Program-made: the position numbers and the translations under genes
The notes under the pieces: generated by a model
Seen by the model: the letters and a program-made list of their open reading frames with translations, nothing else
Database searches by the model: none
What the model was told of the DNA's origin: nothing
Shown here: piece by piece, positions 18,259-34,700 of the stretch
Position numbering within the stretch: position 1 is the first letter of the stretch
Layout of the letters: each line of letters opens with the position of its first letter
IMG/VR virus record: IMGVR_UViG_3300009149_000016
Location: 43,137 to 107,136 of that record
Length of the DNA: 64,000 bases
Reading direction: 5' to 3' (one strand)
From: a virus

Positions 18259-21200
18259 TTAATTGTCGTCGAGCAAGCCTGGTACCCCGGTCCCCAGATT
18301 TTGCTCTCGAATGGATTGACCGAACACCTCTGCGTCGATCTTGAGGCCAATACCACGAAAGTCCGGCCCAATCAACGTGTTGCCAGCGATGTCGACCAGG
18401 TGCAGCACACTGACCGGGTTTGTCTCCGGGAACCGAGCCTTCATGGCTGCCAAGCACACGCTCTGAACCGAGACTTCGTCCAGCTTGTTGATCTTGAAGA
18501 TCGCCACCTTGGGCGGCTCTTTGCGCTTGGGGAAGCTCGCCGATGGCTTCGGTGGCTCGGCTTGAGTCTCGCTGGCGCCGTGGTCGAACTTCAGGGTGAG
18601 CCAATCAGGGCTCTTGGCGTAGACCTTATCCCCCTGCCTGAAGTGGGAATCCTTGATCTCTTGCCCATCCTCATAGGCTTCGCCGTACTTCATCTGACGC
18701 CAGTCGTAAGTCGCTGCCCAGGACCGACCGAGAAGCGGTTCAACGATGAGCGGTACCTCCCACCCAACCATTCGACTGTACTCTTCCATGTAGAATTCGA
18801 TGACTTCCATGATCTCTTGAGCCATGTCGTCCCGAATCTCAAACACGATTTCATCGTGGACGTTCAAGAGGATGCGTGCGCAGTCGAGACCGTTCTTGAG
18901 CCAGCCCCGCTTGTAGAATTCCCGGTGCAGCAAGATGAACGACACCTTGAGAACGTCGGCGCCCGTGTTCTTGTTGATCGCCCCCTCACACTCAAAGCGA
19001 TGACCTTCATCCTGAACGGATAGAGTGAAGGTTGGACCCTCCTGAGAAAGGGTGCGGGTTTCCTTGACCCGTTGGTACCCATAGACCGGCTGGGTAATCG
19101 TCCAACCCATTGTGTCGAGCATGTGCTGAAAGGTGATGAGCGTCACGGTGCCACCCGACCGCATGCGCAAGTAGAGATTGTAGAGAGACTCGTTGGGGAA
19201 AGCAGACCGCTTTTCCTCTGGGTAGACTTCAAGCAACTCATCGATCAGGAAAGAAGGCGCGTACAGATCGACCATCTTCGGAAGCCGGGCCGATGTGTGC
19301 TCTACAGCAGACCGGAACATCCGCTGATTGATGTCCAAGCGGTAACTCACCTGTCCTTTGTAGGTGTATGGGCCATAAAGTGTGGAATCCACCCCTAATG
19401 TACGCAGCAAGAGCTTCACATCACGCAACAACTCTTTCTGGCAGAGGTGGATGCTGTAAGGGTCACCATTCGTGGTGCGATGCCCATCTGAAGACATCAA
19501 CCCCAACACAAACTGTTGTCGGTTGACCAACAACCCGGAGAAAATCCGAGACGAAAGTCGCTTGGTGTGAGCAGTAGCGGCGGGAATTCCCAACTCGTCA
19601 AGCCACCGAACCAAATCCACACTGTGAACACTCACGATGTATCGGGTGGAAACCTTTTCGTGTGGTTGGTGTGTGGCTTCACGAATGGTTGGGTTGAGCC
19701 CCCATCGCCGCCAGAAGCCCACACATTGATCCATTTTGGCCGTTTCATGAGCACCGAAGATGTAGTGGAGCCCATCGTCCCCCTTCCAACCATCCCCGAA
19801 GTAGTAACCCAACCAGAACCACAGGTCACCTTCATTGTCGGGAGGCATCACAGGCGTGTGCGTTGAGCGCTCGCCAGACACAAGAGGGGGGAGTGGAAGC
19901 TCAGGGAATGTGACTGGTTTGGGGATCGATGTTGCTACCATATCCCCAACACACAAATCCGAGAAATCTTTCCAGATATACCCGTGTTCCGAAAAGACAA
20001 GCACCTTGTGACGAGTATCGCAAGGGATGAGGGTTCCATCTGCAAGCTCGATCTCGGCGTATTGCCATGGGCCCATATCGCGAAGTTGGAAAGATGCCCA
20101 ATTGGTCCCCGTCCAAACCCGGCAATCCTTCTGCCTGGAAAGCTCGGCAATCGTCAGGTATCCATGATCTGTTAGGATGCGAGCCGAAGGCTGGAGACAA
20201 CCTTGAATCGGATAGTTCGTCGAGTACCGCTCACATGCAGCCCGCAGCTTGTTGGCGTCCTCTTTGTTGAGGAAACGCCCCATGCTGTCCTTCGTGCCTT
20301 CTTTGCAAGCGGCATCCGGGATGGAGATCCAGCGGCCCGAAGCCGTTTTGACTCCGAGGTTGGTCTTGACGTAGGCGTGCTGCCCCTTGACCCATGTGGC
20401 GAACTTGCTGACTTTCTTGTCGAAGTTTTGCTTACGACGTCGGGCTTCCTGCTTGTTGCAACCCGTGGCCCGCATGATGGCTGCCGGCCCGCCACCGTAG
20501 ACGAGCGCGAAGTTGGCAGCCTTGCCCATCTTGCGCTTGTCTGTGTCGTCCCTTGTGATGTGCGCCCCGAAGAACGCTTGAGCCGTGATTGTGTGAAGGT
20601 CACCCGTGCCGTGGATGAATTCCTTAAGCCAAACGGGTTCCTGACTCAAGTTGGTGACAATTCGAAGCTCTTGGCCTGCATAGTCGCTCTTGACTATCGT
20701 GTAGCCGGGCCGGGAGATGAACAGCCGACGCAGGCTGTGGGCGACCTTGGGACGCTTCGGGTCCTTGCGGGCAGGGATCCCGTGGATGGGAATGCTGGTA
20801 CCCCCATGGTCAGACTTACCAGCGGGAGCCGAGAAACGCCCCGTCGTGGTCCCCGTCTGCTTGAAGTCGAACCGAAGCTGGTCAAACTCATCAACGTCGT
20901 GGAGCATGCCTTCCAAGTAGGTCCCGATGATCTTGTCGATCTGACGCCATTTGACGATATCGACAAGGATATCGGGCGCATCGCCAGCCTCTGCCAGCTT
21001 CTCAAGGATGTCAGCCGACGTCGAGTATTGCTGCGAACCCGCCTTTTCAGCCGCTTTCGTGAGAGGGGGCTTGGGTTCTAAATCGAACCCCTTGCTCGTG
21101 AACAGCAAGTCACTCACTTGCGGGGGGCTGCCGGGGTTGAAGTCCTTAAACCCTACGGACTTGGCAACATCGACGATCCTCTTTTCGGTTTCAGCAAGCT

Positions 21201-22281
21201 CGATCTTTGCTTCCTCAATGAGGATGGCGACTTCCTTCAGATCGATCTTGACCCGGTTGCGGTCCATCACCCGGCAGACCTGGACGACCTTCTTTTCCAT
21301 CTGGTAGGCACCAGAGAATTTCTTGTCCTTCCACGCCTTGGTGATCTCTGGGTGTCGGCAAAGAAGCAACGTACAGATGCCGTCGCCGCCGACGTATTCC
21401 TTCACGCCGAAGCTCGCCGGATCGAGAGAAGCGAAGTCGACCGTCTGCCCTCGCTCGAACAGTTCCTTCATCTCGACCATCTCGTAGGGTTCATCGTCCG
21501 GCGTCCGAAGCAACTGCTTTGCCTTGGGCTTCAGACCAATGCGCTTGTCCCCTGAGAAAATCGTGAATGCCGCAAGCATTCCGTCTTGGAAAGAACTTGG
21601 ATGCCAGTAGTCGATCCCGGTGACCGGGTAGAGGAATTCTTGGTCGAACTTGGAGTGCCAGAAACAGATGACGACCTTGCCTGGTACCGCAACCTTACCG
21701 GCAAGTGGGTCCTCTTTGGCTGACTCTGGGTCGAGGGTGGGCTGTGAGGCCAAGCACAACCGCTTGATCTGCTCTTCAACCGCTTTGACGTCTGGGATGT
21801 TCGGATTGACATCCGGTGTCAGCGGATCTGGACGGTGCCGGACGGGCAGGTAGTAGCCCGTGACACCGTCGACGCTCATACAGTAGCCGACGATCTTGTG
21901 CGGAGTGCTTGGGGCTCCGTTCTCATCGTAATTGATCCGGTTGTCGAAGCCCTGGGTTTCCAGGTCAAGTGAACACTCACCCGCTTCGATAGCCTCATCT
22001 ACGAGCTTGACGACTTCCTCCACCGTCGAGAGCAAGACGAACTTGTGGTGTTTCATCCACGGCTTGATCACGGCTCGGGTGACAGATGCCGCCTTCAGCG
22101 TCCCATCGGCGAACATGCTCGCCGGGTCGTCCCCTACGTCGTCATCGTCATCGTCGTCCGGTTCGGGGGCCTTAGCCTTTGGGGGCTCGGGCTTGGGAGG
22201 ATCAGGCTTCGGTTCCGGGACGGGTGGAAGCTCTGCGTCGTCCATGTCGAATTCGTCATCGTCGAAGTCAGACTCATCCAT
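18259..22281 (-). CDS. Family A DNA polymerase with 3'-5' exonuclease and an in-frame intein
   Basis: Replicative polymerase of 1340 residues, about 929 after intein removal. Residues 1-55 are acidic and Pro-rich. The exonuclease domain shows SLDLET (104-109), HSKFDQEF (209-216) and YVGGDG (296-301). Polymerase motif A is KSDYAGQELR (531-540), motif B KRKMGKAANFALVYGG (582-597), with Phe591 at the residue that influences dideoxynucleotide discrimination, and motif C LLNVHDEIVFEI. The intein at 695-1105 splits PIQG from TGAD. It lies downstream of the helicase and zinc-finger primase genes and overlaps its neighbour by 8 bases. Confidence 0.95.
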   Translation of the reverse strand: MDESDFDDDEFDMDDAELPPVPEPKPDPPKPEPPKAKAPEPDDDDDDDVGDDPASMFADGTLKAASVTRAVIKPWMKHHKFVLLSTVEEVVKLVDEAIEAGECSLDLETQGFDNRINYDENGAPSTPHKIVGYCMSVDGVTGYYLPVRHRPDPLTPDVNPNIPDVKAVEEQIKRLCLASQPTLDPESAKEDPLAGKVAVPGKVVICFWHSKFDQEFLYPVTGIDYWHPSSFQDGMLAAFTIFSGDKRIGLKPKAKQLLRTPDDEPYEMVEMKELFERGQTVDFASLDPASFGVKEYVGGDGICTLLLCRHPEITKAWKDKKFSGAYQMEKKVVQVCRVMDRNRVKIDLKEVAILIEEAKIELAETEKRIVDVAKSVGFKDFNPGSPPQVSDLLFTSKGFDLEPKPPLTKAAEKAGSQQYSTSADILEKLAEAGDAPDILVDIVKWRQIDKIIGTYLEGMLHDVDEFDQLRFDFKQTGTTTGRFSAPAGKSDHGGTSIPIHGIPARKDPKRPKVAHSLRRLFISRPGYTIVKSDYAGQELRIVTNLSQEPVWLKEFIHGTGDLHTITAQAFFGAHITRDDTDKRKMGKAANFALVYGGGPAAIMRATGCNKQEARRRKQNFDKKVSKFATWVKGQHAYVKTNLGVKTASGRWISIPDAACKEGTKDSMGRFLNKEDANKLRAACERYSTNYPIQGCLQPSARILTDHGYLTIAELSRQKDCRVWTGTNWASFQLRDMGPWQYAEIELADGTLIPCDTRHKVLVFSEHGYIWKDFSDLCVGDMVATSIPKPVTFPELPLPPLVSGERSTHTPVMPPDNEGDLWFWLGYYFGDGWKGDDGLHYIFGAHETAKMDQCVGFWRRWGLNPTIREATHQPHEKVSTRYIVSVHSVDLVRWLDELGIPAATAHTKRLSSRIFSGLLVNRQQFVLGLMSSDGHRTTNGDPYSIHLCQKELLRDVKLLLRTLGVDSTLYGPYTYKGQVSYRLDINQRMFRSAVEHTSARLPKMVDLYAPSFLIDELLEVYPEEKRSAFPNESLYNLYLRMRSGGTVTLITFQHMLDTMGWTITQPVYGYQRVKETRTLSQEGPTFTLSVQDEGHRFECEGAINKNTGADVLKVSFILLHREFYKRGWLKNGLDCARILLNVHDEIVFEIRDDMAQEIMEVIEFYMEEYSRMVGWEVPLIVEPLLGRSWAATYDWRQMKYGEAYEDGQEIKDSHFRQGDKVYAKSPDWLTLKFDHGASETQAEPPKPSASFPKRKEPPKVAIFKINKLDEVSVQSVCLAAMKARFPETNPVSVLHLVDIAGNTLIGPDFRGIGLKIDAEVFGQSIREQNLGTGVPGLLDDN
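18967..20199 (-). mobile_element. LAGLIDADG intein in DNA polymerase (411 aa)
   Basis: Self-splicing insert from Cys695 to Asn1105 with Thr as the +1 residue. Block A is CLQPSARILTDHG, block B carries TLIPCDTRHKV, and the end shows EGHRFECEGAINKN. The penultimate residue is Lys instead of the usual His. Two dodecapeptides, WLGYYFGDGWK (823-833) and FVLGLMSSDGHR (924-935), mark a homing endonuclease of the LAGLIDADG type. It interrupts the conserved PIQGT segment just before polymerase motif C, a site where loss is unlikely without exact excision. Confidence 0.92.
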
Positions 22282-25527: not shown

Positions 25528-25651
25528 CTAGCTTTTTCCTCCGTCGTTCGTCCTGCCACGCTCGAAGTCGATCCATGAAGGTCGATCGGTACTGGCGAAC
25601 GTCCTTGTCGGGTACCTTGTGAGGGTCCCAACCCCCGTACTTTGTTGTCAT
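25487..25651 (-). CDS. Small basic protein (54 aa), overlapping gene
   Basis: The ATG at 25651 overlaps the helicase stop (ATGA) and the TGA lies at 25489-25487, giving a 41-base overlap with the next gene. The protein starts MTTKYGGWDPHKVPDK and becomes a charged helix (LRAWQDERRRKKLDEQLRQQ). The overlap with the helicase stop argues for this frame over the alternative frame ending at 25524. No function known. Confidence 0.55.
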   Translation of the reverse strand: MTTKYGGWDPHKVPDKDVRQYRSTFMDRLRAWQDERRRKKLDEQLRQQERQNGG

Positions 25652-27393
25652 TTATCCCTCCCTTGCAGCATCCCAACGAGATCCCGGATGCTGTTGCGCC
25701 CCTTCTCGAATTCCAAAGCGCCCACAGCCGCCTCACCAAGCACCTTGTTGATGACGTTGCGCTTCTTTCGTAGGAGAGTCAGGACGTAGTGGTCGATGGT
25801 GTGGACCCCCTCTTCTGGCTTGCCGTGCCGCTCGGCGATGAGGTGGTAGCACAGGACGTTCGGATGGGGGCTACCGATCCGGATGGGACGGCCCAAGATC
25901 TGGACGTAATTGCCGTAGCTCCACGGAGCATCGTAGAACACGATGGCTGCCGCCGCCTGCAAGTTGATCGATTCTGAACCGGCATCCGTAATGAAGATTA
26001 CATGGATATCGCTTTTCATATCCGTGAAGACTTTCTTGGCCTCTTCACGTTTGGCGTCATTCTCTTTGCCGGTGATCCGGACGGACTTGATACCGACCTG
26101 GTCGAGAAGTCCCCGGAGCCGAGCGACGACCGATTCGAACCGGGTGTAGACGATGACCTTCTCACCGTCCAACTCCTCTGCCATGAGCGCTTGGAGCATC
26201 TGTTCCTTCGAACCGAGCTTGCCCACCTCCAAGTCTTCGTCGAAGTCGATGATGAAATCTCCTTCCCGGTACTTGAGCAAGTCCAGGGAGTTGACCACCT
26301 TTTGGCACATCATCAAACTCGTCAGGGCTTTGCTGTCCTCATAATCAAGGACTTCGCCGGACCCAAGCTCCAAAACTCCGCTGAGCGCCTCGCAATACTT
26401 GGCGTCCTCGACCTTGCTCATCGGGAAGCGAACCTCACGGGTCGTGAGTGTCGGAAGCTCGGCCGATACCTCGTGCTTCTGGCGCCCCAAGAAAAACGTG
26501 TCGATTCGGTCCCGGAACCGGTCCAGGTTCTTGAACCCGAGCACGATCGGGATCTTGCGACGACCCACCGGCTGCATCTTCACGAAACAGAAGTCGTCCA
26601 TGAACTTCGTCTTCGTGGTGAACACCCCCGGCATGATAACGCCGTAGATGCTGAAGCCTTCCATCAAGTGGTTCTTCAGAAGGGTTGCGGTCAGGCCGTA
26701 GACCCGGTGGGAGCGGCTCGCCACCTGGGCGCATACGTCCCAGGTCTGGGTTCGGCTGTTTTTGAAGGCACTCGCTTCGTCGAAGATCATGACCAAGCTC
26801 TCGACCGAGTCGGTGATCCTGTCGAGAAGGCCAGGCACGACGGACGCGCCTTTCTTGAGGGCTTTCTTCTCTGGGATGAATCGGCCCTGTTTCCAATCCC
26901 GCACGAGGATGTGGTAGTTCATGATGAGAACTACCTTCTCGGCATCGGGGCCCGTGGGGGCCTCCTGCCACGCCTTGTATGCCGCCTCACGCTTGGCGAG
27001 GGTGCCGGATGCGATGACGGTCCGGACCCCCTTGGCAAAGCGCTGGATCTCCCCAGCCCACTGCCGAAGGGCGCTCTTTGGGGCGACCACGATCACCTTG
27101 TTGTTGTGCTCGATGCTCCACAGGTAGCACAGGGCGGCAATCGTCTCGATCGTCTTGCCTAGCCCGCACGCGTCCCCAAGGACCATGCGTTTGAGCTTGA
27201 GCATGTGGAAGGTGCCTTGGACCTGGTAGTACCGGAGCCGGAAGGGCTCTCGACCCCCGTCAAAGCTGGAGATTTCCTCCCGAAGCATTGGGCACGGTTT
27301 GAGTGAAACCGTCTTGGAAGCCCGGACCTTCTGGAGTTGCTCGTAGATGGGTCGATGGGTCTCGACCGGATCAGCAATCGGCTTGGCTGGCAT
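25648..27393 (-). CDS. SNF2-like superfamily 2 helicase/ATPase (581 aa)
   Basis: ATP-driven DNA translocase. Motif I is GDACGLGKTIET (73-84), motif II IFDEASAFKN (about 202-211; DEAS rather than DEAH), motif III GLTATLLKN, motif V DAGSESINLQAA, and motif VI QILGRPIRIGS (about 495-505). These define an SNF2-type double RecA core without extra domains. Phage relatives act in replication restart or recombination. It opens the replication gene run; GTGTAG lies 15 bases before the ATG, with AAGAAGG as ribosome site. Confidence 0.9.
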   Translation of the reverse strand: MPAKPIADPVETHRPIYEQLQKVRASKTVSLKPCPMLREEISSFDGGREPFRLRYYQVQGTFHMLKLKRMVLGDACGLGKTIETIAALCYLWSIEHNNKVIVVAPKSALRQWAGEIQRFAKGVRTVIASGTLAKREAAYKAWQEAPTGPDAEKVVLIMNYHILVRDWKQGRFIPEKKALKKGASVVPGLLDRITDSVESLVMIFDEASAFKNSRTQTWDVCAQVASRSHRVYGLTATLLKNHLMEGFSIYGVIMPGVFTTKTKFMDDFCFVKMQPVGRRKIPIVLGFKNLDRFRDRIDTFFLGRQKHEVSAELPTLTTREVRFPMSKVEDAKYCEALSGVLELGSGEVLDYEDSKALTSLMMCQKVVNSLDLLKYREGDFIIDFDEDLEVGKLGSKEQMLQALMAEELDGEKVIVYTRFESVVARLRGLLDQVGIKSVRITGKENDAKREEAKKVFTDMKSDIHVIFITDAGSESINLQAAAAIVFYDAPWSYGNYVQILGRPIRIGSPHPNVLCYHLIAERHGKPEEGVHTIDHYVLTLLRKKRNVINKVLGEAAVGALEFEKGRNSIRDLVGMLQGRDK

Positions 27394-27445: not shown

Positions 27446-27700
27446 ATGGAGCCTTTCAACGTTACGACCGAGACCACCCACCACCGACTAACTGCCGTGG
27501 TCATCCGTGAGGAGAACAGCGGACGTCGTTGGCGAAGCAACCGTGCGTTTGGCTCGGAGATGAGCGCCACCCGTTTCGCTATCGAACAGGTGGTTCCGGC
27601 GCTTCAAAAAGGTGCTCACCCGGGCACATCCACCAAGTGGACGGAGATCGAGCCGGTTCACCAGAGCCCGGCCTGGTACCTGCAACAGCGGGCAGGCTAA
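27446..27700 (+). CDS. Small hypothetical protein (84 aa), plus-strand island
   Basis: The ATG at 27446 (MEPFNVTTET) follows GGGGTGC. The protein is soluble, Thr/Trp-containing and has no known motif. It is divergent from the SNF2-like gene and convergent with the MazG-like gene, stops overlapping by three bases. Its leader CTTATGGGGTGCATG nearly matches that of the SWIM gene at 8872, suggesting shared control of the plus-strand islands. Confidence 0.6.
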   Translation: MEPFNVTTETTHHRLTAVVIREENSGRRWRSNRAFGSEMSATRFAIEQVVPALQKGAHPGTSTKWTEIEPVHQSPAWYLQQRAG

Positions 27701-28098
27701 GCCTGCTTGCCTCCGTGGCGAAAGGATCGCGTCTGATTGTACGCATCCTTGACCGCCACCGCCTTGCCGATGTCCACCCCGTAGAAGCCCGCCATATCGA
27801 GCGCTCGGATGATCACGTCGGCAAGCTCTTCCTCGAAATACGTGAGCGGCTCTAGCCCCAGCGCTTTCATCTCTTCAGCCTTGTCGCAGGGCTCGTTGAG
27901 GAGACCCTTTCGATAGGCGGTCCAGATCTCAGCCACCTCTTCGTGAAGGTTGGACGTGTAACGACCGACCCCCTGGGCTTCCAACTCTGGGTCGTGGAAG
28001 CCTTTTGCGGTGTGGATCTTGAGGATGTGGTCGCCGAGCGTGTTGAGGATGACCAAATCGAGCGGCTGGTACTGCTTGTATGGAGTCTGGTCAGACAT
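27697..28098 (-). CDS. MazG-like nucleotide pyrophosphohydrolase
   Basis: All-alpha NTP pyrophosphatase family, 133 residues. The metal-binding helices are visible: HEEVAEIW with Glu53, Glu54 and Glu57, and EELADVIIRALDMAG with Glu90, Glu91 and Asp94. Single-domain MazG-like enzymes hydrolyse (d)NTPs to (d)NMPs; phage copies may adjust dNTP pools or alarmones. Substrate cannot be read from sequence. GTGTAA lies 15 bases upstream of the ATG, and an ACCCTTcAAGGGT inverted repeat precedes it. Confidence 0.8.
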   Translation of the reverse strand: MSDQTPYKQYQPLDLVILNTLGDHILKIHTAKGFHDPELEAQGVGRYTSNLHEEVAEIWTAYRKGLLNEPCDKAEEMKALGLEPLTYFEEELADVIIRALDMAGFYGVDIGKAVAVKDAYNQTRSFRHGGKQA

Positions 28099-28324
28099 GC
28101 CCGGATCTTACACCCTTGAAGGGTATGAATCGAGCAAGACGACGGCCTTCAGGCCAATCGACGATCTCATTCCACATCTCAAGCGGACGGATCCACGTGC
28201 CCTCTTGGTCCATGTTGACGTAGACCACCATCTTGGACTGGTCCTCCGAGTGTTTCCCCACCGCAATGACCTGGTACAGACCGCCCTTGAAGTGTCGGTA
28301 GAGTTTGCCAACTTTCGGTTGCAT
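28091..28324 (-). CDS. DUF1653 domain protein (77 aa)
   Basis: The sequence KLYRHFKGGLYQVIAVGKHS, then MVVYVN and GTWIRPLEMWNE, matches the DUF1653 family, a small beta-rich domain of unknown function frequent in phages. Two starts are possible (28330 and 28324); the second keeps the 15-base distance to GTGTAG seen elsewhere. It overlaps the mazG-like gene by 8 bases and lies directly downstream of the triple-hairpin array. Confidence 0.8.
   Translation of the reverse strand: MQPKVGKLYRHFKGGLYQVIAVGKHSEDQSKMVVYVNMDQEGTWIRPLEMWNEIVDWPEGRRLARFIPFKGVRSGHV
28108..28113 (-). promoter_or_regulatory. GTGTAA element before MazG-like gene
   Basis: GTGTAA (one change from GTGTAG) starts 15 bases upstream of the ATG at 28098. 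No Shine-Dalgarno sequence is evident between them. Confidence 0.4.
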
Positions 28325-28333
28325 GCTCATACC

Positions 28334-28339
28334 CTACAC
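28334..28339 (-). promoter_or_regulatory. GTGTAG element before DUF1653 gene
   Basis: GTGTAG starts 15 bases upstream of the ATG at 28324, just after the hairpin array and an AT-rich AACTAATTTAA segment. Confidence 0.45.
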
Positions 28340-28353
28340 CCCTTAAATTAGTT

Positions 28354-28444
28354 GGGCCCTGGTTGAGTTGTCAGGGCCCGAATATAGGCACAGTTGAGTT
28401 GTCGCGCCTACTAGAGCGGCCATAGTTGAGTTGTCATGCCCGCT
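28354..28444 (-). ncRNA. Three tandem RNA hairpins with identical 10-nt loop
   Basis: On the minus strand three hairpins occur every 31-32 bases, each with the loop ACAACUCAAC. Hairpin 3 (28444-28415) has a 10-position stem with one G-G mismatch and one G-U. Hairpin 2 (28410-28385) has 8 pairs, two of them G-U. Hairpin 1 (28379-28354) has 8 Watson-Crick pairs. Stem sequences differ completely while pairing is kept, and hairpin 2 pairs fully only on the minus strand. No T-tracts follow, so these are not ordinary terminators. The array is the 3' region of the 430-residue gene and the 5' region of DUF1653. Confidence 0.65.
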
Positions 28445-28478
28445 ACAAGAATCAAAGTATCGTTCGGGGAGCGAATTG

Positions 28479-29771
28479 TCAAGTGGGTTCCAAGCAGATC
28501 GTGACATTCGCATGGCGGCGAGACACGTTGAACTTGCGCTGGAAGGGCTCGGATCGAACGCCTGTGGACGAATCGAGCGCGTACATCTGCACCCTGCTTG
28601 CAATCTCAGAGGAATCCAGGTTGAGTCCAGCCCCCTTGGTGACTTCCAGAGATACGTGAATGTTGTGCGGACCGTCCACGTTATCCCAAGCATCCCAGCC
28701 CACAGAGGAGATCGACTTGCGCCGGGAAGGAATTCCCCGTGTGCCGACGTACTCCCCGATCACCCGAATCGAACCGCCTTGGTCAACACCGATCCCGAAG
28801 TGGTCGATCCCGTAGGGCTTCAGGTAGAATGCGTAGAAGGTGTCGGGGCCAGCAACGCGTGTGAGGGGGTAAACAACCAGTCCCTCACGGTGCTGGTTGA
28901 AGTATCGACCGCCTCGAAGGTCTGCCATGGTTTCGAGAGTCCTGACGGTCGGAGACGGTAGTCCTTGAAGCCCGAAGAACCGAGGCGTTCCGACTTGGAA
29001 GGTATCGCCGACGCCCGTTGCGGCGTAGTTGGCGGTTCCTGTGTTGTACGCCTGGCGTTGAGTCGAACCCGAGATCACGTAGGACCCCACCTTGGGTTGA
29101 TGGTAGAGGTTCTTTTTGGTGTGAGACCAGATAAGGCATGAACTGTTCAAGGGGGCCACAGGTGTGACGATTGAGTGAAATGCGTTCATGAAGTCACGAC
29201 CGGGCTCCGTGAAGGCATCGGTCCAATGACCGCCACCGCCTTCAAACGCAGTATCGATTCCACACGTTGGCGGAAGCCCACTACGATAACGCCGGTTGTA
29301 GGAGCCGCCCCCTCGCATGCTGCTGTACATCCGGTTGTGGCAAGAGACCCGAACTTGGTTCATGTCGGGGTCGAACACCTCGAAGACCCGAACCACAGCT
29401 TGGTCATCGAAAAAACCGCCGCTCGACGCCGTGTTGGCCCAAACATAGGAGATCACCTCAGCAATCGTGCCTTGTGCTTGATAGTGTTTCGTCCCGGTGC
29501 CGCCTGGAAAGTCGATCTCGAAGAACGCACCTTGCAAAGTGTCGTCCCACTGCTGTGCCGTGTGGCCCGGGGTGACTGCATTTGCGCTCACGGTGATTGG
29601 ACGCGTTCGCAAGTAAAACGTGATTTGGTCCGTCTGCCGCAAGTACCAGCGAGGACGACGGGTCCATGTCTGAGTCACGTTGTCCCACTGCCAAATCGTG
29701 CGCTCAGCGTCGACGTAAACTTGACGGGGCGATGTCGGGATTGGCTTTGTGACGGTGTTCCACTCAAACAT
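28479..29771 (-). CDS. Putative virion protein (430 aa)
   Basis: Beta-rich, Gly/Ser/Thr/Trp-containing protein without enzymatic motifs, similar in style to the appendage proteins upstream. It opens with a Trp-rich section (YVDAERTIWQWDNVTQTWTRRP) like a short carbohydrate-contact module and includes RGGGSYNRRYRSG. An AAGGA site precedes the ATG. No family recognised; a tail or baseplate surface role is inferred from composition. Confidence 0.55.
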   Translation of the reverse strand: MFEWNTVTKPIPTSPRQVYVDAERTIWQWDNVTQTWTRRPRWYLRQTDQITFYLRTRPITVSANAVTPGHTAQQWDDTLQGAFFEIDFPGGTGTKHYQAQGTIAEVISYVWANTASSGGFFDDQAVVRVFEVFDPDMNQVRVSCHNRMYSSMRGGGSYNRRYRSGLPPTCGIDTAFEGGGGHWTDAFTEPGRDFMNAFHSIVTPVAPLNSSCLIWSHTKKNLYHQPKVGSYVISGSTQRQAYNTGTANYAATGVGDTFQVGTPRFFGLQGLPSPTVRTLETMADLRGGRYFNQHREGLVVYPLTRVAGPDTFYAFYLKPYGIDHFGIGVDQGGSIRVIGEYVGTRGIPSRRKSISSVGWDAWDNVDGPHNIHVSLEVTKGAGLNLDSSEIASRVQMYALDSSTGVRSEPFQRKFNVSRRHANVTICLEPT

Positions 29772-29816
29772 GATGTGTCCTTAGTTGCAGGTATCGGACT
29801 GCACTCCGCTGGTCAA

Positions 29817-30401
29817 TTAGAAGGCGAACCAGAGCCCAAAGTGAGGGTTGTGTGTCCAGGATGCCCAAGCCAGTGCATAGCCTGCGTGCGCCCCGAAGTT
29901 CTTGGTGACATCGACCCCAAAGCTCAAGCCTGTCGACCTGATCCCGACGTTGGCGTTGAGGTTGGCCCACTGCCAATGGAAGAAATCGAGCATGGCAGAG
30001 ATCTCAAGACCCTCACGCAAGTCCTTGGCGTTCCACGCCTCGACCGCCAAAAGCCCCATCGCCGCCTTGGGTCGCAGCCGAAAGCCCCACGTTGAAGGCT
30101 CGACCATCCCCACCACGACATCGATCTTGCCCGCAGCGTCGGCTTCGTACGTGCACCACTGCATCCGCAGCTTGTATGGATGAGGCTGGGCGCCCGAGTA
30201 GAAGATGCGTCCCTCACGATCACGGATGATGGTGATCGGATCCAACTCGAAAGTCGGGTCCTGGGTCTGCAAGCACTTCTTTTCCTTCAGAAGCTCGACG
30301 AACACGTTCATGTCCGGCTCTGGGACACAGGTTCCGTCAGGGCATTCTTGCGCCGCAGCGAGCGACGGAAGGAAAACGAGCGCTAGGGGGGCCCACCGCA
30401 T
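29817..30401 (-). CDS. Exported protein, outer-membrane beta-barrel-like (194 aa)
   Basis: The ATG at 30401 overlaps the upstream TGA (TGATG) and gives a clean signal peptide MRWAPLALVFLPSLAAA with AAA-Q as cleavage site. The mature part starts QECPDGTCVPEP with four Cys in its first half (possible disulfides). From about residue 95, alternating hydrophobic strands (GFRLRPKAAMGLLAVEA, ISAMLDFFHWQWANLNANVG) lead to a terminal FGLWFAF with C-terminal Phe, as in outer-membrane barrels. Could exclude superinfecting phage or aid lysis. Confidence 0.65.
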   Translation of the reverse strand: MRWAPLALVFLPSLAAAQECPDGTCVPEPDMNVFVELLKEKKCLQTQDPTFELDPITIIRDREGRIFYSGAQPHPYKLRMQWCTYEADAAGKIDVVVGMVEPSTWGFRLRPKAAMGLLAVEAWNAKDLREGLEISAMLDFFHWQWANLNANVGIRSTGLSFGVDVTKNFGAHAGYALAWASWTHNPHFGLWFAF

Positions 30402-30751
30402 CACTTCTCCCGATAGTAGGAGTAGACCTTGGGGGCGTTCTTCGACTTGTAGGCGTCCAACTTGGTCTTGAGCGCCGTCCACAAGCGAGGGTCGGACCCA
30501 AGATGGTTGGAGATGAGCCGGTAGCGTCCCCAGTTCGTGATCAGTTCTTCCAACTTGAACGGAAGCTTTTCCAATGCACCAAGGGACTTGAGCCATGGCA
30601 TCAAGATGTGGTTTCGCCCAAAAACCAAAGCGATCTGCTCAATCGCAACGACAACGTCACCTCGGTGAGGCACCGTCACTCTGTCTTTCAACAGTTGCTG
30701 GGCTTCCATCTTGACGTCGACGGGGAGCTTGAGATCTGCTGTCGGATTCAT
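30401..30751 (-). CDS. Hypothetical protein (116 aa)
   Basis: The ATG overlaps the upstream stop (ATGA) and its own stop overlaps the exported-protein start. Helical, basic C-terminus (KTKLDAYKSKNAPK), Trp-containing middle. No signal peptide or membrane segment. Unrecognised; its position in a coupled run with membrane and exported proteins suggests a shared envelope-related or lysis module. Confidence 0.55.
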   Translation of the reverse strand: MNPTADLKLPVDVKMEAQQLLKDRVTVPHRGDVVVAIEQIALVFGRNHILMPWLKSLGALEKLPFKLEELITNWGRYRLISNHLGSDPRLWTALKTKLDAYKSKNAPKVYSYYREK

Positions 30752-31023
30752 CGCACCACCGAAATTGCTTTTTCGAGAATCTTCCGAGCATCCGCAGAGG
30801 CCCTCGCTGGAGTGTCCCCCTCACCCGTGACAACAGGGGCACCCCCACCGAAGTACAACGCGCAGAACCATTTGTTGGACAAGGGGCCATACCCTTTTTT
30901 CATGGTCGCACGACCAATCTTCCTTCCTTTCGCAACCAAAGGAAGGGTGAAGCCCTCAGCCCCGGAGATGTCATCTACCCAAGGTTTCCAAGCAGCGATG
31001 TGGGTTCGGTCGTAGGAGTACAT
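30748..31023 (-). CDS. Hypothetical protein (91 aa)
   Basis: The ATG at 31023 overlaps the upstream TGA (TGATG). The protein has basic central residues (KGRKIGRATMKKG) and a Gly-rich loop (YFGGGAPVVTGEGD), and ends with a helix. No membrane segment or catalytic pattern is visible. Unknown role in the same coupled run. Confidence 0.5.
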   Translation of the reverse strand: MYSYDRTHIAAWKPWVDDISGAEGFTLPLVAKGRKIGRATMKKGYGPLSNKWFCALYFGGGAPVVTGEGDTPARASADARKILEKAISVVR

Positions 31024-31541
31024 CACTCACCGTATTTCTTCAAAAGATCATCGACGTCCTTGCCCGTCACCGGGCTGCTGTCCTTGACCGTGACAACGGT
31101 GATCTCTGGGCTCACAATCACGACTTGGTCGACATCCTTGGCCTTGACGCCGTCAGGAAGCTCGATCTCGATCGTCTCTTCACCCGGGGGAGTAATCTTC
31201 ACGACGTCAGGATCGTCGAAAAGACCAGGAAGCTCGACAGGGACCACCTTGGCTTGGGTGACGCCCTTCGAATCAGGTGTGCCCGGCCGGATGATGTTGC
31301 CATCCTTGTCGACTCGACCCTCCGGAATGGAGTTGGCAATGTCGATGGCGCGCTTGGCCGACTTCCGGTCACGCCCAAAAAGCTTGCCGAGAAGCCCACC
31401 GATCTGAGGCTTGAACCCCAAAACGATGAGAAGCCCGGCGCCGACCACGATGAGGATGGCGACACCCGGAGCGAAGATCGTACGAGAGATCTTCTTTAGC
31501 CATCGCCAGGTGGCTTGCCAGAAGGTCTCTTCCTCGCTCAT
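31023..31541 (-). CDS. Single-pass membrane protein (172 aa)
   Basis: The ATG at 31541 overlaps the upstream stop as ATGA. A strong transmembrane helix (VAILIVVGAGLLIVLGF, about residues 26-43) follows an amphipathic basic N-terminus (WRWLKKISRTIF). The remaining 130 residues are charged and beta-prone (EETIEIELPDGV, DQVVIVSPEITVVTV). Topology resembles an inner-membrane anchored accessory of a lysis cassette, though no holin, endolysin or spanin signature confirms it. Confidence 0.6.
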   Translation of the reverse strand: MSEEETFWQATWRWLKKISRTIFAPGVAILIVVGAGLLIVLGFKPQIGGLLGKLFGRDRKSAKRAIDIANSIPEGRVDKDGNIIRPGTPDSKGVTQAKVVPVELPGLFDDPDVVKITPPGEETIEIELPDGVKAKDVDQVVIVSPEITVVTVKDSSPVTGKDVDDLLKKYGE

Positions 31542-31735
31542 TTTCTTTCCTGAACGGGGATTGCCCCCGCTTCCCAAGCCGCCAGCTTCTGAAGTTGCTT
31601 CATGATGACCTTGGCTTGAAGCTGGTCCATGATCGGGTTGGCGAGCATCGCCTTGAGGTGGGTCCGGCGCGTAGCAGCGGCTTCGCGCCGCTGCTGTGGG
31701 CTCAGATCCAAGTAGGACATGTGCTTGACGCTCAT
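31538..31735 (-). CDS. Small helical hypothetical protein (65 aa)
   Basis: AGGAGC lies just ahead of the ATG at 31735. The protein is a basic helix-rich peptide (SPQQRREAAATRRTHLKAML, then LQAKVIMKQLQKLAAW). It is coupled to the membrane protein gene by an ATGA overlap. No family recognised. Confidence 0.5.
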   Translation of the reverse strand: MSVKHMSYLDLSPQQRREAAATRRTHLKAMLANPIMDQLQAKVIMKQLQKLAAWEAGAIPVQERK

Positions 31736-31743
31736 GGTAGCTC

Positions 31744-34700
31744 CTAGAAGTCGATGTCGTAGATGGCCGGGCTCAGGGTGATGGTGTTCGGATCAAGCTC
31801 GAAACGAACGTTGTCCCGAACCAGAGGGTGACCCTCAATCCGGTAGAAGTCCGCTGCCGAGTAGCCTTCACCCGTTCCCTGCGTACCGATGAGGGCCATT
31901 GCCAAACTTGAGATTGTGATGTCCTGCACCGTCGTGGTGATGAGCATCATCAATTCGTCGCCCGCCGAGACTTCTGTTGACGACACACTTGTGACCGTGT
32001 TGCGCACCAAGTGCGCATGCCCGGTCAGGCTCCGTGTGTGTCCAGCGCCACCACCGTTGATGAGTTGGTGACTCGTGAAGCATTCACCGCCAGGACGGAA
32101 GCCGGATCCAGAGAACGCACTTCCACCCCGATTGACTCGGTAGTTCGTAAGGAGGCTGTAGTTGGCCGGCTCACCATCCACATGGATGATGACGTCGCCA
32201 GCTTGCCCGCTCACGAGGTGGACGTTGGAGAGGTTGACTTCTCGAACGCCCAAGGTCGATTCAGGGGCGAGACTCGTGGCAAACACGCCGGGGGTTGCGT
32301 TGCCCCAGTAAATGAACGGGCTGTCATGTGCGGCTCCAACCTTGTCTCCCCGGAAGTCCTTGTCCCGGTACAGAGCACCGATTGGCAGAGTTTCCGTGCA
32401 GCCAAGATAGGTCGTCGAGACGGCGAACATGTCTTCCGAAGTGCCGCCCGGGTAGAACAAGGGACGATCCTGCAAGACGCTGGTCGGGGGATACGCAAAA
32501 GGATCCTCGTAGCCCACGTTGCGGAAGTCCGGCAGGTTCGTGTTGACCGAGTCACCGCTCAAGCGGCCGGTTCCGAGCGTCGTGGTGAAGCCAACCGAAG
32601 CCAGGACTTCGAACATCTTCTGGTCGGGCCGGGTGAGGTTGGTCTCGTCGAGGCGCGTTGAATCCACCTGGAAGGCCAGTGCTGTTGTCATGGGGCCCGG
32701 CTTGTATGGGTTGTCCATGTAGTTCGACCCGCTGCCCCATGCATCGCCCTGGTAGGGGGTGCGGCTGTAGTTCACCAAGATCTGGTCGGACACAGCCGGG
32801 GGTGCCGGAACGATGAGGCTGGGGTTATCGAAAGCTCCCGCCACGGGCAAGCCGATGTTGGCGTACCGGTCAACGATGCTGTTTGCCTGTTGACGCTCAC
32901 GGGTCGTCAGAAGGCGGAATTCCCCTTCCAAGTCGAAGCTTCCACGGTCGAACCCGAAGATGCTTGCTTCGATGACGAAGTGCGCCGTATCGAAGTCCGT
33001 AATCGGATTGGGGCTGCGGTCCAAGTCGATCGCGTCCCGGTTGAGAATGAACGTCGAGTCGCCATCTTCGTCAAGCTCGACCCAGAAGGTCGGCCCATCG
33101 AAGTCTTGCCGAAGCAAGTTCGTGGCGTCGGTGTTGTCAAGTTCACGAGTCGACAGGCTGTAGTTGGAACCTGCCGCCTTGTAGTCTTCGGATTCGTAGA
33201 CGGAGAACAGCCGAGCGATGCCGTAGAAGGGAGGAAGCTCCAAGCCTTCTCGACCCATTCCCCGGCTGTCCGTGTAGTGCTGCATTCCGGCGAGAGAGAT
33301 TGCACCGTACAGGAACTTGGAATTGTAGATGGCCGGCGCCGAAGTGTTCAGGTCGACCGTCGAGAACGTTGCGAACGATGCGGTTCCTGTCCCCGTGTAC
33401 GGAATGTAGTTCCGCTCGGAGTTGGGCATCGTGGTCGCTTGGCCCTTGGTGGACAGGACCATGTAGTTGACGCCCTCGTAGAAGGGGGCGACGTCCAGAT
33501 GCCGGATCGGAACCCGAACCGCACCCCAACCAGGGATAAGCTCCCGGGGGGCCGTCACGAAGATGTTCTTCATGAAGTAGGAGTTGCCGCCCGACCAAGT
33601 CGAACCATTGAAAAGCTCCAAGGGGTCTGTGTTGGTCCACTTGGGAACGACAGCAAAACCGTCCCACCGGTCCATGGGCATCAAACCGAAGCACTCACGG
33701 AAGTAATAATTAACGCCCAACGTTGGGAACGCTGTGGGAATGATCCGATCCACCGTGACAACGTTGACCGCCACTGACCGAACTGTGTAGAAGCCGTTCC
33801 ACGGACCGGGCTGTACGATGGTCAGTTGCATCCCTTCGACGACGCCCAAAGCCACGAAGTCCACGGTGGTATCCGTGAGCGTATCGCCCATCACACCCAA
33901 TTGACCTTGGTTGTTACCATACAGGTCGATGGGGATCGGGTTTGCCGACACGCCGTCGTAGGTGAGGTATTCGGCCGGCATCTGCACACGACGGAACGGG
34001 GAGAGGATGACCGTCTTGCTCGACGGGTCCGCATAGGCTTCTGCCGTCACCGGAAGCAACCCGCTGTACAAGTCGTTGCGGTAGCGGGACCAAAGAGCCG
34101 TCCAAGCCGTTCGAAGATCAATGTTGTGGGTCGGAATTCCGACCTGTTGAACCATCGCATCCGAAGGGGGGTCGAGGTAGGCGACATTCTGAAGTGAACC
34201 AGGTCGACGGCTCAATCCACGCCCGGGGCCGTACATGACATGGAAGCCAATGTAAAGCTGAGCTTCCGTGCCGGCTGGGAAGTCAGAACCGAGTGTGATT
34301 TCGATAGCCTCGTTCGGCGTGGGGTCGGCCGGGGTGACCGTGAAGAACGTCGAGCTTTCAAGAGGTTCAGACTGTCCTTCGATCCGAAGCTCGATGACAT
34401 TAGGCATGTTCGTGATGAACCGCACCTGATCTTGATCGCCGCCCGGGAGGCCTGCCTTGAAGTCGCTGATATTGATCCGGAGCACGTCGCCAGGGTTGAA
34501 CTGACCAGCGACTGAACGCACCGATTGGAAAACATCCACGCCGAGTGTCCAGGTCACACCCACTTGCGCCGGAAGCACCAACCCGTTGGGCTTGGCAACC
34601 GTGTAGACCCGCTGGAGACTCGCTGCATCTGAGAACACCTGGCGGATGTTGTCCGGTCCGTCGAGAAGCGTGATGCCAGTCGAAATGCCCGAGCCCACCG

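Follow-up and report, generated by a model that had tools for sequence, protein, structure and literature searches.

Three hairpins encoded on the minus strand of a large bacterial virus (record IMGVR_UViG_3300009149_000016) form a real structured RNA, and what is new here is the identity, by sequence comparison, of their common loop with the boxC element of actinobacterial rrn leaders, from which it differs by one change. The window, that is the whole stretch of DNA that was analysed, is the final 64 kb of this 107,136-base record. The most likely reading of this RNA is as a variant of the nut/rrn antitermination signals in which boxC is tripled and displayed on hairpins, and we give about an even chance to the proposal that it serves as a nut-like, NusA-recruiting antitermination leader of the DUF1653-MazG-helicase operon.

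The hairpin array and its setting

The array (28354-28444, minus strand) consists of three 8-bp hairpins that are 31-32 nt apart, each with the loop ACAACUCAAC closed by G, and it lies in the 148-nt intergenic gap between p430 and the DUF1653 gene (Table 1). When this gap was folded as minus-strand RNA the structure obtained was exactly hairpins A, B, and C, with an energy of -51.6 kcal/mol and a z-score of -3.78, and none of 200 shuffles folded as well; the plus-strand fold of the same gap was unremarkable (z -0.32). The sequence GACAACTCAAC is present in exactly three copies, all on the minus strand, in the window and also in the whole record. The sequence-only reading of this DNA had described three hairpins with one common loop at a spacing of 31-32 bases and this was borne out by the fold and by the three copies of GACAACTCAAC, and the check that it proposed for repeats elsewhere in the full genome found none in the 107-kb record beyond these three.

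Table 1. Features of the array locus, with positions in the window, and the actinophage elements compared with it
Feature	Position	Strand	Description
Hairpin A	28417..28444	-	arms 28442-28435 / 28424-28417; loop 28434-28425 ACAACUCAAC; one G-G mismatch
Hairpin B	28385..28412	-	arms 28410-28403 / 28392-28385; loop 28402-28393 ACAACUCAAC; two G-U pairs
Hairpin C	28354..28381	-	arms 28379-28372 / 28361-28354; loop 28371-28362 ACAACUCAAC; all pairs standard
GACAACTCAAC copies	28435-28425, 28403-28393, 28372-28362	-	
boxA-like ACUUUGA	28452..28458	-	7 nt 5' of hairpin A; compared with rrn and phage elements
p430	28479..29771	-	gene of unknown function, 5' of the array; no relative found in viral_contigs
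DUF1653 gene	28091..28330	-	first gene 3' of the array; start codon 28330
MazG-like pyrophosphatase gene	27697..28098	-	overlaps the end of the DUF1653 gene
SNF2-type helicase gene	25648..27393	-	followed by DnaB-like helicase and DNA polymerase genes on the same strand
Shine-Dalgarno-like AAGGGG	28339..28344	-	5' of the DUF1653 start codon (28330); read directly
Leader elements of Streptomyces, Gordonia, and Mycobacterium phages	L563, L565, L566, L570, L571, L572		

With the stems aligned in register, 23 of the 24 cells are standard pairs and five of the eight pairs differ on both sides between copies, the covariation being between three repeats of one genome and not between species; when the partner was slid by 1-3 columns the pairing and covariation of the array stems were lost. 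The probability that random arms would pair at 7/8, 8/8, and 8/8 positions is about 1e-9, and when shuffled strands were scanned generally for loops repeated within stems, chance pairs averaged 0.375 per strand. The stems had been called unrelated in sequence, which is not wholly so, as two pairs, a G-C and a C-G, are invariant across the three hairpins. Pairing had been said to be kept, which is correct apart from the one mismatch in hairpin A, and the two G-U pairs ascribed to the second hairpin are indeed there in hairpin B but are not the only ones, as hairpin A has one. The identical loops and the covarying stems support the earlier proposal that selection acts on both loop sequence and pairing. 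Calculated cross-pairing among the hairpins was only partly lowered by the varied stems. In the Rfam search the array fell below the gathering threshold of every family, in agreement with the earlier statement that no named RNA family matches it.

The order of genes on the minus strand is structural genes including tail genes (31-64 kb), p259, p430, the 148-nt gap, DUF1653, the MazG-like pyrophosphatase, the SNF2 helicase, the DnaB-like helicase, and the DNA polymerase; the DNA polymerase (window 18259-22281) carries a LAGLIDADG domain. The array's position at the boundary of the two gene groups, about 35 nt past the stop codon of p430, would suit a 3'-end signal of the p430 mRNA, whether a stabiliser, a processing site, or a terminator that divides late from early genes. 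We consider such a signal improbable because the test for an intrinsic terminator found no U tract or T run after the stem and no terminator-like site, and because a pure end-protector would leave the identical 11-nt loops unexplained. A promoter or terminator was looked for at the array locus and none was identified; the one candidate for a consensus promoter, TTGACA at 28482, was rejected with a spacer of only 15 nt to GATACT.

The equal spacing of the hairpins is near three helical turns and the cumulative GC skew has a minimum near 28-32 kb, and both would be in keeping with an element that acts as DNA, whether as iterons or operators at intervals of 31-32 bp or as a single-strand hairpin origin close to the genes for replication. 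This appears quite improbable, since the G-U pairs become C-A mismatches on the plus strand and the skew tracks gene content, the third-codon-position skew being different in structural and replication genes. Moreover, the skew switch is not specific to the array, as the skew shifts in the same direction in 62 of 69 relatives that do not have the array. A replication origin placed by GC skew at the tail/replication junction (window 28000-32000) was rejected because the sign change there is explained by the codon usage of the two gene groups.

Likeness of the loop to boxC

The loop GACAACUCAAC is identical at 10 of 11 positions to GAGAACUCAAC, one base apart from it, and this comparison element is actinobacterial and may not be that of the host. 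The GAGAACUCAAC element is located 5' of actinobacterial 16S rRNA; in Nocardioides it is represented by AGAACTCAACAG, which lies directly after TTTG and about 145 nt upstream of the 16S rRNA. The extended motif (T/C)TTGAGAACTCAA(C/T)AG was found, with at most one mismatch, in 48 of 60 Actinomycetes genomes and the reversed control in none, and in a small sample from other phyla the match to the loop was poorer, at 7-9 of 11. The array loops, at their 10/11 identity, include the boxC core AACUCAA as it is found in actinobacterial rrn leaders, a likeness that the sequence-only reading had overlooked. We take AGAACUCAAUAG to be the rrn boxC RNA that is bound by M. tuberculosis NusA and the GAGAACUCAAC element to correspond to boxC. 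The binding of boxC-like RNA by the S1-KH1-KH2 part of M. tuberculosis NusA, and the sequestration of boxC in stem-loops there, are described in PMC6614801.

The chance of a 10/11 identity to the conserved rrn element is about 1e-5 per site, for a match that was made after looking for known motifs. There are five sites in the phage genome within one mismatch of GAGAACTCAAC and three of them are the array loops. With an 11-nt profile built from rrn and actinophage elements the three loops take the first three ranks among 217,924 positions. A profile made from the relatives' elements is partly circular, its members having been collected by means of a boxC-like pattern, and the mismatch count to GAGAACTCAAC is the cleaner measure. 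In an actinobacterial genome (G096 contig 1 near 3083172, L561) the sequence CTTTGACAACTCAACAG, which includes the exact phage loop, adjoins a convergent tRNA-Ala gene.

The boxA-like CUUUGA upstream of hairpin A is rare: the minus strand of the window holds 12 copies of CTTTGA in its 64 kb, and AT(N)CTTTGA is present once there, at this site. The 5' arm of hairpin A keeps ACUUUGA apart from the first loop, and the two are not contiguous as they are in rrn leaders.

Relatives and linear boxA-boxC elements

A profile of the SNF2 helicase identified 80 related loci, many of them in jumbo-phage contigs of 200-600 kb, and at none of these 80 loci were p430, DUF1653, or MazG detected; at one of them (L132) p259 directly precedes the helicase. 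The array is thus part of a block that is missing at this place in the relatives. Searches of viral_contigs gave no relatives for p430 or for DUF1653. A search of 50 whole relative records with the covariance model R2 gave no comparable array, and boxC displayed on hairpins was seen in no relative. Homologous arrays, whose absence from relatives the sequence-only reading had regarded as counting against it, were thus not found, yet this is not decisive because the relatives do not have the whole gene block in which the array lies and because linear boxA-boxC elements are present at other places in some of them.

Among the matches listed for the patterns AACTCAA (three times), CAACTCAAC (twice), and AACTCAAC (three times) there was no other three-hairpin covarying array with this loop. 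Two matches to exact loop pairs in viral_contigs were coding coincidences, scans of the relatives for repeated loops gave scattered matches only, mostly in repetitive or coding sequence, and the repeats in L076 were unrelated inverted repeats. Nocardioides (L223, L251, L257, L263, L281, and L282) and Marmoricola (L244) have 22-nt tandem repeats, for example GGCAACTCAACGGTGAGGATGC, that contain CAACTCAAC and are not hairpins.

Many Streptomyces phages have linear boxA-boxC elements of the rrn type, and so do some phages of Gordonia and Mycobacterium. Most of these elements occupy unannotated DNA 5' of the first early gene, which opens an operon at the right end of the genome, as in Amela, Zemlya, Bantam, Refuge (two), and Manuel (two). 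Single short matches in these actinophages have weak E-values and the case is made by their recurrence in unrelated genera and by their position. In the relatives, elements like TTTGACAACTGAATAG numbered 13 compared to 2 in the control with up to two mismatches, and 6 compared to 0 with up to one; most of the intergenic ones are within or beside same-strand tRNA arrays, and the element of one relative, GACAATTCAAC in a tRNA array, is one base from the array loop. Elements like UCUUUGACAACUGAAUAG, with boxA and boxC in or beside same-strand phage tRNA arrays, were found at L584, L586, L589, L592, L593, L594, L601, and other loci. Their position suggests that the untranslated tRNA arrays of jumbo phages are subject to antitermination like that of host rRNA, and these linear elements may be weightier than the hairpin array itself. 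In the literature searched we found no description of boxA-boxC in actinophage early leaders or in jumbo-phage tRNA arrays.

The 323-kb relative G034 has four dispersed copies (L596, L597, L598, and L600) of a leader of about 130 nt, which is made up of an upstream hairpin, the boxA-boxC-like CCUUGAAAAUUCAAUAG, and a downstream hairpin, and which resembles dispersed nut sites. In a relative (L008/L161) the SNF2 and DnaB genes are split by in-frame, intein-like insertions.

A putative NusA-recruiting leader

The sequence of events under the antitermination proposal would be as follows. The array would act in cis as a nut/rrn-type leader RNA, with the boxA-like ACUUUGA followed by the three boxC-like loops (GACAACUCAAC), and RNA polymerase would enter the DUF1653-MazG-SNF2-DnaB operon from the tail-gene side. 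The nascent loops would be bound by host NusA, perhaps together with NusB/S10 on the boxA-like sequence, and the polymerase so modified could then pass Rho-dependent or weak intrinsic terminators. The three displayed copies may increase avidity, and the varied stems might prevent the hairpins from pairing with one another. Neither a NusA-KH nor a NusG domain is encoded in the record, which agrees with a reliance on host factors. We infer the NusA binding, the antitermination, and the gain from three copies, as well as an actinobacterial host, whose rrn boxC would be expected not to differ strongly from AACUCAAC. Against this proposal are the absence of boxC on hairpins from the relatives and the separation of boxA and boxC here, the two being fused in rrn and phage elements. 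Of the roles suggested earlier, a multivalent protein-binding site at the tail/replication junction is supported whereas an antisense target and a processing signal find no support here.

The array resembles the rrn nut sites (boxB-boxA-boxC) in its 10/11 match to the actinobacterial boxC and in the boxA-like CUUUGA upstream, but in the phage boxC is tripled, each copy is in a hairpin loop, boxA stands apart, and protein genes follow. Like lambda nutL/nutR, at which N protein acts, it would combine a hairpin with boxA in the leader RNA of a phage operon; unlike them it has three hairpins, its loop is not boxB, and the loops hold a NusA-type sequence. Tandem hairpins in a phage leader RNA are also a property of the HK022 put sites, which act directly on the polymerase and have defined stem sequences, whereas in the array the stems vary and the loops are constant. 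The linear boxA-boxC elements of actinophages and jumbo-phage tRNA arrays have the core GANAACU(C/G)AA in common with the array but are fused to boxA, and none of them is a hairpin array.

Repeated hairpins with a constant loop and variable stems are found also in CsrA/RsmA-binding RNA arrays, and identical loops with covarying stems would suit any loop-binding protein. Between the end of the array and the DUF1653 start codon are 23 nt that include the Shine-Dalgarno-like sequence, and it is possible, if rather unlikely, that another phage or host RNA-binding protein acts here on the DUF1653-MazG mRNA to control its translation or stability, in the manner of CsrA or coat-protein sites, and that the likeness to boxC is due to chance. 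The low chance of the rrn identity at any one site and the boxA-like sequence upstream argue against this, and no candidate binding protein was identified; as to CsrA/RsmA itself, GGA is absent from the array loop and Rfam gave no match. That the three copies, having no adjacent fused boxA, might act as a sponge in an abundant phage RNA and draw NusA away from host rRNA synthesis is very unlikely, given that the array is in a protein-coding leader whose copy number need not be high and that there is no evidence of a separate small RNA.

For the NusA-recruiting leader taken more broadly, we put at slightly below even the prospect that it is a phage nut variant in which tandem hairpins displaying host rRNA boxC capture host NusA, and that it is part of a wider use of rrn-type signals by actinophages and by jumbo phages, in the latter also at tRNA arrays. 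If this is true, the phage shows a host rRNA antitermination signal on repeated hairpins and thereby shields an operon from termination, and the array would point to the host and be a simple RNA for testing NusA recognition. More widely, the boxA-boxC elements of the rrn type in actinophage early leaders and jumbo-phage tRNA arrays would explain how long untranslated transcripts escape Rho.
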